Part shown: piece after piece, positions 51,062 through 54,971 of the stretch | Numbering within the stretch: position 1 is the stretch's first letter | Layout of the letters: every line of letters begins with the position of its first letter | Source of the DNA: Neisseria mucosa | GTDB lineage: Bacteria > Pseudomonadota > Gammaproteobacteria > Burkholderiales > Neisseriaceae | Assembly: GCF_013267835.1 (NCBI RefSeq) | Contig: NZ_CP053939.1 | Span: 1,054,001 to 1,118,000 of the forward strand | Length of the DNA stretch: 64,000 nucleotides | Direction of reading: 5' to 3' | Position numbers and translations under genes: made by a program | The notes under the pieces: model-generated | Told to the model about the DNA's origin: nothing | The model's database searches: none | What the model saw: the letters and a program-made list of their open reading frames with translations, nothing else

Positions 51062-52102
51062 TTAGTTTTTCCCCTTAAATGAGAGCAGCCAAACATCAGG
51101 ATTGTCGGTTGAACGGAACTCAAAATGATCGTTACCGTATTTATGTAGAGTCTCTTCTGTGACAGGTTCCCCTGTTCTTAAACAATCAGCCGCCTCTAAA
51201 CGTCCTTTAACCCATTTACCAAATATGGTTTGATCACCTTTTGAACTGAAATTTTTACCATTTTGTCCTGTGGTATTACATTCAAATTTCCAACCATCAT
51301 CCGTGATGACAGTAAACTCTTTTTGTTTTGGGTATCCTTCTGCACCTAAAAATTTTGTTGATACAATCAACTCTGCTTCATACCATGGCCTAGGTAAATA
51401 AAATCCACGTTTATTTTTACGGCCTTTGGCAAAAAATCGGTTTAAACTGCTTTCTGGGAAAGTTTTAACTGGTAAATCAAAGTGATAAGTCGATATTTGT
51501 GAAAAAAGTTGCTCAAGTATAGAATCATTTACTTTTTCAACTCCCAGACAATTCTCCAAATGAACATTATGTTCTTTAAAATCAGTTGGTTTTGCTACTT
51601 GATTAATAGCCACACCCAATTGCTGGATAACCTGATCTATATTTTTATGTAATTTAGATGCCGTCTGAACATCATTCAAATGAACCATTGTTTCATAGGT
51701 TCGCTCAGTATTATCCCAAAAGCAAGTAAGATTAGCAGAACCAATCAATCCATGAGTTTCATTCTGATTCTTAAACGAATACATTTTTCCATGAAATTTC
51801 ACACGTGGAGAAACGTATACTGCCCCACGTTGCTTATCTTGCAAAAAATAATTTAATTCACAAAGACTGTTGTATTGAGGACGACTAAACCCTTCTAAAT
51901 AATGCATACCAACCAATAATTTGATTTTCTGGTTATGTTCGCTATCTTCTAAAATTTTATGTAACTCTTTGACTGCATCATTAGAAACATAGCCTGTTGC
52001 CATTAAAATTTCATTGGCGGACATAAATAAATCCATCCAAACTTTATTTAATGGCTTATCTGTAATTCGTGCATTAGCAATATTAGAAAAAACAGTATTC
52101 AT
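51062..52102 (-). CDS. PLD-type restriction endonuclease, NgoFVII/NgoAVII family
   Basis: Predicted site-specific nuclease, 346 residues. The N-terminal phospholipase-D domain has a single HKD motif: H104 and K106 in [10 protein letters not shown] followed by GSANLT at 121-126, so the active site would form in a dimer as in BfiI. The C-terminal half (about 220-345) resembles a B3-like DNA-recognition domain ([41 protein letters not shown]). The gene overlaps the methyltransferase by 4 bp and its stop abuts the DEAD-Z1 start, showing a tight operon. A full ATGCCGTCTGAA uptake sequence lies inside at 51658-51669. The recognition site cannot be read from sequence; NgoAVII relatives recognise GC-rich 5-mers. 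Confidence 0.9.
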
Positions 52103-53223
52103 CGTTTTCCCCCTCGAATTTTGCTTAGTCGGTCATGAAATAAAACATCCTTCTCTGCTTTCAATTTCTTATGTAAATCTACTTTTTTATAGTTACCTGA
52201 AAAAATTGGTAAGAGGGTTCTTGCCAATTCAACCACGCCTTGAGGCGGTACCGCATTGCCAATCTGACGACGTACTTCCGTCGTTGAACCAACAAACTCA
52301 AAATCATCAGGAAAACTTTGAAGCCTTGCTCGTTCCCTATTAGTAAAAGCACGCGGTTCAGGGAAGTGATAGCCCCAAGTACCACCGCCACCCGCAGCAA
52401 TAATTGTTGTAGAAGGTCTATCACGGTGCATTCGCCGATAAACAAGGCTTAACATACTTTTTACATATAAAGGATGTTCTTTAGGAATATCACTATAGTT
52501 TCCTCCCTCTGGGATTAGTTCTAAACGTTTACGGGTTTGCTCACTAATTTTCAACAATTCATTATTACTGGCATTCTTGGGAATATTAGATATCGCTTGA
52601 CCAGCAGTTACATATGGTTTTAAGCCATTTTCGCCAGTTTCATTGTGCGTCGGTTCTGGATGATGAAAATCAAATCCTGTATCCAAACGTACTCCGACAA
52701 TTAGCACACGTTCACGAAATTGAGGTACGCCAAATTCAGCAAAGTTATACAGCTTCGCCTGAACGTAATAACCGCAATTTTCAAAGTCGGTAATAATTTG
52801 CTGGATGGCTTTTTTCTTATTGGCAGTCAACAAACCTTTCACATTCTCAGCAACAAAAACTTTCGGTTTTTTTGCATTTACAAAACGTAAAAAGCTTTTA
52901 TAAAGATTGCCGCGCTCACCCTCTAAGCCCGGCTGTTTCCAAATCATGGAAAAATCTTGACAAGGGAAGCCGCCTAAAATGATGTCGCAATCGGGAATAG
53001 TTGGATCATTCGGATCAATTTGTTCAATATCACCTTCTACGATGACATCGCCGATATTTTTACGGAAACTTTCGCAAGCCCAATGGGAAAAATCGTTCGC
53101 CCAAACAGTTTCATAACCAGCTTGGTGAAAACCCAAATCTAAACCTCCACATCCTGAAAATAGAGATAGAATTCTGGGTTTATTGTCAGACGAATTAAAA
53201 TTTGAGATTTTTTTAGATGACAT
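52099..53223 (-). CDS. DNA (cytosine-5) methyltransferase of the restriction system
   Basis: Protects host DNA by C5 methylation of the system's recognition sequence. The 374-residue protein has the ordered motifs: [13 protein letters not shown] (21-32); [11 protein letters not shown] with catalytic Cys88; [32 protein letters not shown]. The target-recognition region between VIII and IX is moderately long. It is the first gene of the M-R-ATPase operon. An in-frame TGA lies two codons upstream of the ATG at 53223, so the pentamer repeats further upstream are not part of the protein. AGGAG lies nine bases before the ATG. Confidence 0.96.
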
Positions 53224-53285
53224 AGGATTTCACTCCTATGCATAGATTTGATAAAAAACCTTGAAGGGATTTTAATAGAGAACTA

Positions 53286-53375
53286 GGCAAGGCAAGGCAA
53301 GGCAAGGCAAGGCAAGGCAAGGCAAGGCAAGGCAAGGCAAGGCAAGGCAAGGCAAGGCAAGGCAAGGCAAGGCAA
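53286..53375. repeat. Pentanucleotide simple repeat, 18 perfect copies of GGCAA
   Basis: Eighteen uninterrupted GGCAA units (TTGCC on the coding strand of the operon) lie 63 bases upstream of the methyltransferase start. Tracts of this kind change length by slipped-strand mispairing and are the standard Neisseria phase-variation device. Here the tract is outside the methyltransferase frame, so it would act through the leader or promoter. Confidence 0.97.
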
Positions 53376-53494
53376 GCTTACCATCGTTATTTTGAAATAA
53401 AATCATTTTTCTAAAACTTCCATGTAAATTTTTCCTATTATGCCGCAAAAAAACAGCAAATGCCGCTGCATTAAACAAGTGATGAATACTTGAA

Positions 53495-53522
53495 ATTATA
53501 AATAAAGTATTCATAATCCCAA
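53495..53522 (-). promoter_or_regulatory. Predicted promoter of the restriction-modification operon
   Basis: On the minus strand TTGGGA (53522-53517) lies 16 bases before a perfect TATAAT (53500-53495). A transcript would start near 53488 and include the whole pentamer tract in a leader of about 265 nt. Confidence 0.45.
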
Positions 53523-53564
53523 GGCCGTCTGAAAACGATATGATTGTTTTCAGACGACCTTTTC
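53521..53564. repeat. 44-bp flanking repeat, right copy
   Basis: It is identical to 49124-49167 except for C instead of T in the left arm (AGGCCG here, AGGTCG there). It is an inverted-DUS hairpin facing radA and overlaps the -35 of the predicted restriction-operon promoter. Confidence 0.85.
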
Positions 53565-53594
53565 ACACATCAAATATTCCACAGGGAAAACACT

Positions 53595-54971
53595 ATGGCA
53601 AAAGCCCCAAAAACCATCTACCAATGTTCTGAATGCGGCGGTACGTCCCCGAAATGGCAAGGCAAATGCCCGCATTGCGGCGAGTGGAACACGCTTCAGG
53701 AAAGCCTGGCTTCGCCCGAACCGAAAAACGCCCGTTTCCAATCTTGGGCGGCGGACACTTCGACCGTCCAATCCCTCTCCGCCGTTACCGCTACCGAAGT
53801 GCCGCGCAATCCGACCGGCATGGGAGAACTTGACCGCGTATTGGGCGGCGGTTTGGTTGATGGCGCGGTTATTCTGCTCGGCGGTGATCCCGGCATTGGT
53901 AAATCCACATTACTGTTGCAAACCATCGCCAAAATGGCGCAAAGCCGTAAAGTGCTGTACGTTTCCGGCGAGGAATCTGCCCAACAGGTCGCCCTGCGCG
54001 CACAACGTTTGGAACTGCCCACCGAAGGCGTGAACCTGCTTGCCGAAATCCGCATGGAAGCGATTCAGACGGCCTTAAAACAGCATCAGCCCGAAGTCGT
54101 GGTCATCGACTCCATCCAAACCATGTATTCCGACCAAATCACTTCCGCCCCCGGCTCCGTGTCGCAGGTGCGCGAATGTGCCGCCCAACTGACGCGTATG
54201 GCGAAACAGATGGGCATCGCCATGATACTGGTCGGACACGTTACCAAAGACGGCGCGATTGCCGGCCCGCGCGTGCTGGAGCATATGGTCGATACCGTGC
54301 TGTATTTCGAGGGCGACCAACATTCCAACTACCGCATGATCCGCGCCATCAAAAACCGCTTCGGCGCGGCAAACGAACTGGGCGTGTTCGCCATGACCGA
54401 AAACGGTTTGAAAGGCGTGTCCAACCCGTCCGCCATCTTCCTCGCCAGCTACCGAGATGACACGCCCGGCTCGTGCGTTTTGGTCACGCAAGAAGGCAGT
54501 CGCCCGCTTCTGGTCGAAATTCAGGCATTGGTCGATGATGCGCACGGCTTTACCCCCAAACGCCTCACCGTCGGTCTCGAACAAAACCGCCTCGCCATGT
54601 TGCTCGCCGTCCTCAACCGCCACGGCGGCATTGCCTGCTTCGACCAAGACGTGTTCCTCAACGCCGTCGGCGGCGTCAAAATCGGCGAACCCGCCGCCGA
54701 CCTCGCCGTCATCCTCGCCATGCTCTCCAGCTTCCGCAACCGCCCCATGCCCGAAAAAACCGTGGTTTTCGGCGAAATCGGCTTAAGCGGCGAAGTCCGC
54801 CCTGTCGCACGCGGACAAGAGCGGCTCAAAGAAGCGGAAAAACTCGGCTTCAAACGCGCCATTGTCCCCAAAGCCAATATGCCGCGCAATGCCAAAGAGT
54901 TTCCAAACCTGAAAATCTACGGCGTCAGCAGTTTGCAGGAAGCGATTGACGTCTGTCGTGACGGGGACTAA
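53595..54971 (+). CDS. radA: DNA repair protein RadA (Sms)
   Basis: RecA-like ATPase that drives branch migration in recombination and repair; in naturally competent bacteria it also aids transformation. From the ATG at 53595 the protein has 458 residues. It has the N-terminal zinc finger CSECG and CPHCG, Walker A LLGGDPGIGKSTLLLQ, the RadA KNRFG motif, and the C-terminal Lon-protease-like domain without the catalytic serine site. An upstream start at 53544 is not supported by a ribosome site. It lies directly next to the right border of the restriction island. Confidence 0.96.
   Translation: MAKAPKTIYQCSECGGTSPKWQGKCPHCGEWNTLQESLASPEPKNARFQSWAADTSTVQSLSAVTATEVPRNPTGMGELDRVLGGGLVDGAVILLGGDPGIGKSTLLLQTIAKMAQSRKVLYVSGEESAQQVALRAQRLELPTEGVNLLAEIRMEAIQTALKQHQPEVVVIDSIQTMYSDQITSAPGSVSQVRECAAQLTRMAKQMGIAMILVGHVTKDGAIAGPRVLEHMVDTVLYFEGDQHSNYRMIRAIKNRFGAANELGVFAMTENGLKGVSNPSAIFLASYRDDTPGSCVLVTQEGSRPLLVEIQALVDDAHGFTPKRLTVGLEQNRLAMLLAVLNRHGGIACFDQDVFLNAVGGVKIGEPAADLAVILAMLSSFRNRPMPEKTVVFGEIGLSGEVRPVARGQERLKEAEKLGFKRAIVPKANMPRNAKEFPNLKIYGVSSLQEAIDVCRDGD

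Follow-up and report, generated by a model that had tools for sequence, protein, structure and literature searches.

Located ahead of a restriction-modification operon in a 64,000-nucleotide stretch of Neisseria mucosa DNA (contig NZ_CP053939.1, positions 1,054,001 to 1,118,000; hereafter the window) is a long tandem pentamer repeat, which raises the question of what such a tract could switch from a position outside the genes that it precedes. The operon is composed of three genes of the NgoAVII/CglI type, encoding a methyltransferase (M), a nuclease (R) and an ATPase (N). The reading preferred here, to which we assign a probability of about 0.6, is that a slipped-strand switch acts through the translation of a small leader open reading frame (ORF), and not through the promoter or the reading frame of M itself.

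A hypermutable tract within a leader reading frame

Read on the operon (minus) strand, the tract consists of 18 perfect TTGCC units running from 53375 to 53286, as described in an earlier note on this DNA, and 62 nt separate its end from the ATG of M at 53223. The five-letter repeat is hypermutable and lies inside a tiny gene ahead of the restriction-modification operon. Genome-wide (2.22 Mb) it is the sole array of at least four units, all 15 overlapping matches to four TTGCC units being situated within the tract; of the other TTGCC sites inspected by eye, most of those with three to five units are located within apparent dispersed repeat elements.

Relatives, coded G for genomes and L for loci, were compared at the corresponding position. 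M is present at an identity of at least 78% in five of 46 Neisseria genomes (window genome counted), the identical five yield matches to R, and among 83 Neisseriaceae genomes the matches to M at E <= 1e-100 are confined to the same five Neisseria. All five carry a tract in the corresponding leader. Counting of repeats across isolates, which the earlier note had put forward as a check, gave 18 TTGCC copies in the window, 23 in G014 and 13 in G037, whereas the gonococcal unit is TTGCG, with 14 copies in G015 and 20 and 15 copies in two further N. gonorrhoeae chromosomes. In G017, the M and R genes of which are both broken, the unit is TGCC and occurs six times. Tract length varies within a species, and the unit has changed while its position was retained. 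Two gonococcal records of chromosome size (2.17 Mb), NZ_CP119140.1 and NZ_CP119142.1, are filed as plasmids.

In the Pasteurellaceae, M was detected at E <= 1e-100 in seven of 140 genomes. Three of the seven possess TTGCG arrays in the leader, namely A. seminis (28 and 29 units), G096 (41 units) and G201 (interrupted arrays). Two others, H. parainfluenzae and G145 (two units), are tract-free and keep the remaining leader, and at the last two loci (L167 and L168) neither tract nor hairpin was seen in the leader inspected by eye. Between the two arrays of A. seminis (L162) stand about 16 consecutive A residues, an arrangement that may be real or an assembly effect. On a Cardiobacteriaceae contig the hairpin described below is present, and the contig starts too near M for the leader ORF to be judged. 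The window has tract, leader ORF and predicted hairpin in common with three Pasteurellaceae and with other Neisseria. Arrays that exceed ten units without interruption span 13 to 41 units, and the unit length of the perfect tandem tracts is not a multiple of three, be it TTGCC, TTGCG in gonococci and Pasteurellaceae or TGCC in G017. The change of unit across lineages, always to a frame-shifting one, counts in favour of a frame-dependent switch.

TTGCG arrays of at least five units occur in 13 of the 140 Pasteurellaceae genomes, three of the 13 being the M leaders described here. Arrays at L176, L179, L188, L189, L192, L194, L195, L197 and L198 (Pasteurellaceae and Neisseria) adjoin an ATG on the opposite strand. 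By eye, most of the other TTGCG arrays, with this opposite orientation and adjacent ATG, look like ordinary coding phase-variable tracts.

Leader frames and the start of the methyltransferase

The frame opened by the leader ATG at 53406 crosses the tract and, depending on the copy number n modulo 3, ends at -51, -62 or +8 relative to M. Slippage does shift a reading frame as read from the sequence, that of the leader ORF, a role of frame which the earlier note had overlooked. In gonococci, three ATGs close before the tract share one common frame and give the same outcomes. A stop in the +2 frame that overlaps the M start is found in 13 of 13 leaders, at +8 in twelve and at +5 in one. Among the 12 present alleles the leader ORF reaches this overlapping stop in five (G014, G017, G201, G145 and H. 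parainfluenzae) and ends early in seven (-51 in the window, -62 in G037, -51 in G015, -51 and -62 in the other gonococci, -62 in A. seminis and -9 in G096). In both tract-free relatives an ATG-started ORF is open to +8; in shuffled sequences, the probability of such an open frame is 0.03 and 0.08 for these two leaders. Tract variation, leader ORF and conserved overlapping stop can be followed at the level of the DNA in this way.

Database proteins extend the range of alleles, with overlapping-frame forms at n = 2, 5, 8 and 11 in the TTGCC lineage and at n = 16 in N. gonorrhoeae (P0016, read from the ATG), and forms in other frames at n = 8 and 11 in gonococci and n = 8 in meningococci. These values were counted by hand from the peptides, and the excess of overlapping-frame proteins reflects ascertainment since the searches were seeded from that frame.

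Slippage in gonococci is usually associated with a tract in the reading frame of the switched gene or in the spacing of its promoter (PMC5320596), and both modes had to be weighed for M. A frame switch of the methyltransferase was rejected due to stops in the M frame between tract and ATG: a TGA or TAA lies at -9 in ten of 13 leaders, and in the other three an M-frame stop is found at -15 to -36. The TGA at -9 of the window is the codon by which the earlier note had correctly excluded a coding-frame switch. A promoter-spacing switch, in which the tract would lie between or just upstream of the -35 and -10 elements, was likewise rejected, as the putative promoter-like block is situated upstream of the tract and no promoter is predicted to span or follow the tract on the operon strand, in a scan that yields about as many sites as shuffled sequences. 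We therefore give next to no weight to either classical mode. Of the suggestion in the earlier note that control runs through leader or promoter, the promoter part is not supported; in the leader, an ORF passes through the tract, and one frame in three enters the predicted hairpin.

One GCGGC site is located at the promoter-like block (53442-53446) and a second a short way further upstream (53462-53466). Gonococci, A. seminis and G201 retain the first, for which G096 has GTGGC. Methylation feedback through these sites is possible, but GCSGC is not rare in the window, where it occurs 391 times. Between radA and the leader ORF, genomes of the TTGCC lineage have an inverted repeat of uptake-sequence-like words (53523-53560 in the window), which is not the same in gonococci; GCCGTCTGAA, which we take to be the uptake word, contains no GCSGC. 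A search of 52900-53700 at gathering scores returned no known RNA family.

The start of M is predicted to be buried in a hairpin whose two arms contain the Shine-Dalgarno sequence (SD) and the ATG, respectively. The predicted unpaired probability of both ATG and SD is at most 0.01 (rounded) in 12 of 13 leaders. Standard pairs occupy 97.6% of the pair cells, a share that does not exceed 60% when the registers are slid, and one pair is changed on both sides, in a count that covers seven aligned sequences (six distinct) and leaves out G017, which has a shorter stem, and the non-window Neisseria leaders, which are identical over the 20 bases. By this prediction the hairpin is conserved. Among 47 gene starts of the window, that of M is the most occluded and the sole one with ATG and SD both below 0.02. 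Of 51 methyltransferase leaders (46 from a set of 80 methyltransferase loci and five viral loci), both elements are occluded in three close relatives alone (L081, L083 and L084), and L115 comes close to the threshold (ATG 0.00, SD 0.14); start codons for both scans were picked mechanically. On viral contigs, seven distant methyltransferases were found, and none of the five scanned possesses a tract or a doubly occluded start.

Table 1. Features of the leader and operon in the window (positions in the window; n, copies of the repeat unit)
Feature	Position	Strand	Basis or remark
(TTGCC)18 hypermutable tract, within leader ORF	53286..53375	(-)	sequence and orthologous tracts in relatives
Leader ORF, present n = 18 frame, 44 aa	53272..53406	(-)	ATG 53406 to TAA 53274-53272; ends 51 nt before M
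TAA at +8 of M, overlapping-frame leader end (predicted high state)	53213..53215	(-)	reached if n = 2 mod 3 from ATG 53406; natural example G014, n = 23
MEVLEK mini-ORF (with stop)	53403..53423	(-)	AGGA upstream; its TGA overlaps leader ATG (ATGA)
Promoter-like block GCGGCATAAT upstream of leader ORF, contains GCGGC	53437..53446	(-)	conserved in several lineages
Predicted hairpin CATAGGA-GTGAAA-TCCTATG burying SD (AGGAG) and ATG of M	53221..53240	(-)	predicted fold
M, C5-cytosine methyltransferase	52099..53223	(-)	91% identity to gonococcal NgoAVII-type methyltransferase
R, PLD and B3 nuclease of NgoAVII type	51062..52102	(-)	start overlaps M stop (ATGA)

The proposed switch and its rivals

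Taken together, these features suggest the following course. Ribosomes would enter at the leader ATG, possibly by way of the MEVLEK mini-ORF as entry point to judge from its position, and translate across the repeats; every gain or loss of five bases would shift the leader frame. In one frame out of three, the leader ORF would run to the stop 8 nt inside M, and the elongating ribosome would melt the hairpin that hides SD and ATG of M, terminate on the start and reinitiate. In the other two frames, translation would end 51 or 62 nt before M, the hairpin would stay shut and M would be poorly made. By sequence, the window allele is predicted to be in the low state from either of its two candidate start codons. 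Two hallmarks of coupling by termination and reinitiation can be recognized, a downstream SD and start sequestered by predicted structure and an upstream stop overlapping the downstream start across the leaders, although this overlap is not reached by the window's own allele.

The downstream genes would follow M. At the M-R junction, stop and start overlap as ATGA, an arrangement also found in eight of ten relatives, and at the R-N junction the TAA is followed directly by the ATG. R and N are thus probably coupled to M, so that the levels of all three proteins would change in concert, and the control of the whole M-R-ATPase operon envisaged in the earlier note fits these junctions. R could be aligned over its full length to R.NgoAVII (PDB-ID: 4rct), and by homology the system of the window is expected to show GCSGC specificity and ATP-dependent cleavage. 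R is far more divergent than M, with identities in G015 and G037 of 67% and 64% for R against 91% and 93% for M (L075-L078), which, on comparison of the sequences, suggests nuclease replacement or fast change between Neisseria genomes.

Several observations weigh against the leader-translation switch. GCGGC modification by NgoAVII has been reported in 25 of 25 gonococci, one strain being non-significant on the forward strand (PMC6789123), whereas all three gonococcal genomes examined here are in early-stop frames, which should be low. This conflict limits our confidence to the value given above. Since low alleles would be expected in two frames out of three and yet all 25 strains were scored as methylated, the finding argues against a strict ON/OFF switch; either the low state is leaky, or the test, which reads 5-methylcytosine from polymerase kinetics, was confounded, or our proposal overstates the strength of the switch. 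A possible leak is provided by the TTG codons within the tract, which sit in the overlapping frame regardless of n. Leaders of the TTGCC lineage contain a further ATG 9 nt before the tract, from which the window allele would end at -62 and that of G037 would reach the overlap, and state calls in this lineage therefore depend on the start used. The leader of G096 stops at -9, in the hairpin loop, so that more than one frame may open the hairpin there; G201 has a second open frame after the tract; and the overlapping-frame leader of G017 stands ahead of a broken M gene. Openness after the tract is by itself unremarkable in the six tract-bearing leaders tested (0.19-0.30 each). The hairpin of H. 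parainfluenzae is weak, with unpaired probabilities of 0.24 and 0.27, and the pair-shuffle control was not significant (92 of 500), few sequences being variable. Finally, in the leader ORF, substitutions between genera show no excess at third codon positions. A functional leader peptide was rejected on these counts, and a role of the leader ORF in cis is consequently preferred.

The reported methylation would be accommodated most simply if the tract were hypermutable but near-neutral, M being translated from its own SD in every frame and restriction-modification staying on. The GGAG, which precedes the ATG of M at a workable distance, and the frequency of early-stop alleles are consistent with such a neutral tract. 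However, it leaves unaddressed why overlapping stop and occluding hairpin are conserved across genera, why both tract-free relatives are in the overlapping frame and why long frame-shifting arrays are maintained with differing units, and we regard it as unlikely. Frequent upstream-stop alleles and universal methylation in gonococci could also be reconciled by an inhibitory leader ORF, in which ribosomes ending at +8 block initiation at M and upstream-stop alleles represent the high state. Here the predicted hairpin makes unaided initiation improbable and the tract-free relatives would be locked low, which renders an inhibitory leader very unlikely.

A gradual effect would be expected if length or RNA structure of the leader, and not its frame, tuned level or stability of the mRNA. 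As part of the presumed 5' leader, the tract varies widely in length. Moreover, NgoAVII genes are changed in modA12 and NgoAV mutants (PMC2667262, PMC9577141), and transcripts altered in these two other methyltransferase mutants require an effect on mRNA. Gradual control nevertheless leaves the stop at +8 or +5, the hairpin at the M start and the tract-free ORF unexplained, and appears quite unlikely to us. Leader translation thus remains the preferred basis of the switch.

Known systems and significance

Among known systems, lex2A-lex2B of Haemophilus influenzae likewise has a small repeat-bearing gene upstream of an effector gene, and the frame of lex2A governs lex2B. It differs from the window in that a surface sugar gene is controlled by a tetramer repeat, and we know of no start-occluding hairpin at this locus. 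In a previous report, lex2A is counted with the genes that bear repeats, and lex2B is given as a glycosyltransferase (PMC3116884). In the modA/modB and hsdS phasevarions of Neisseria, too, a slipped-strand repeat controls a DNA methyltransferase system, and that of modB is a pentamer, CCCAA (PMC5320596, Table 2). However, these tracts are part of the reading frame of the methyltransferase or specificity gene itself, whereas the system of the window is of the cytosine-5 type and has its tract in a distinct leader ORF, set off from M by the TGA at -9 and the 62-nt gap, from where it would switch the complete operon. Variation of promoter spacing at fetA and porA shares with the window a tract outside the controlled coding sequence, but takes effect within the promoter (PMC5320596, Table 1), while the tract described here is inside an ORF downstream of the promoter-like block. 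Translational control is known from Type II systems, for which a review mentions hairpins that limit access to the translation start of the nuclease and, as a possibility, a C gene to which the nuclease gene is translationally coupled (PMC12707154); as presented there, this control is not repeat-driven and hides the nuclease start, in contrast to the methyltransferase start of a whole operon in the window.

The NgoAVII trio itself, which resembles the operon of the window in its three genes (M, R with PLD and B3, and N/H ATPase) and their order, has been described together with its GCSGC specificity in PMC4267653; in the accessible part of that paper, neither a phase-variable leader nor phase variation is mentioned, and the word 'repeat' appears only in the reference list. 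Tables 1-3 of PMC5320596 propose 43 phase-variable gonococcal genes; NGO0365 is absent from its Tables 1-4, and the search patterns stated there do not comprise TTGCG. None of four restriction-modification candidates in the accessible text of PMC1097732 is the gonococcal NgoAVII locus by description or repeat, and all 20 rotations of TTGCC and TTGCG on both strands were looked for in the main text of PMC5953494, the sole match being part of an unrelated repeat of nine bases. Among the matches listed for the exact repeat, no title concerned this locus, a search of main texts that leaves a supplementary listing possible, and searches on phase variation combined with translational coupling returned nothing matching. 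The locus is accordingly put forward as a real, variable and cross-family candidate leader switch; slippage, coupling and a start-hiding hairpin are each known, and their combination was not found described for restriction-modification in these searches.

Leader-ORF switches of this kind would escape catalogues keyed to known units or to tracts inside genes or promoters. Two transcriptome studies found NgoAVII genes changed in mutants of other methyltransferases (PMC2667262, PMC9577141); as an alternative to regulation by the deleted enzyme, the tract may have changed unnoticed in the mutant clone. Tentatively, and with somewhat less than even odds, a broader picture can be drawn, in which a hypermutable first cistron of Neisseria and Pasteurellaceae serves as a ribosome gate that moves a whole ATP-dependent restriction-modification operon as a unit, the nuclease never being unprotected, in which the gonococcal copy is an unlisted phase-variable locus, and in which hidden tract changes could explain those shifts in NgoAVII transcripts. 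If the switch operates as proposed, the defence provided by an NgoAVII-type system and its marking of DNA with 5-methylcytosine would be randomly tunable in Neisseria, the gonococcus included, with a bearing on phage resistance, barriers to DNA uptake and epigenetics.
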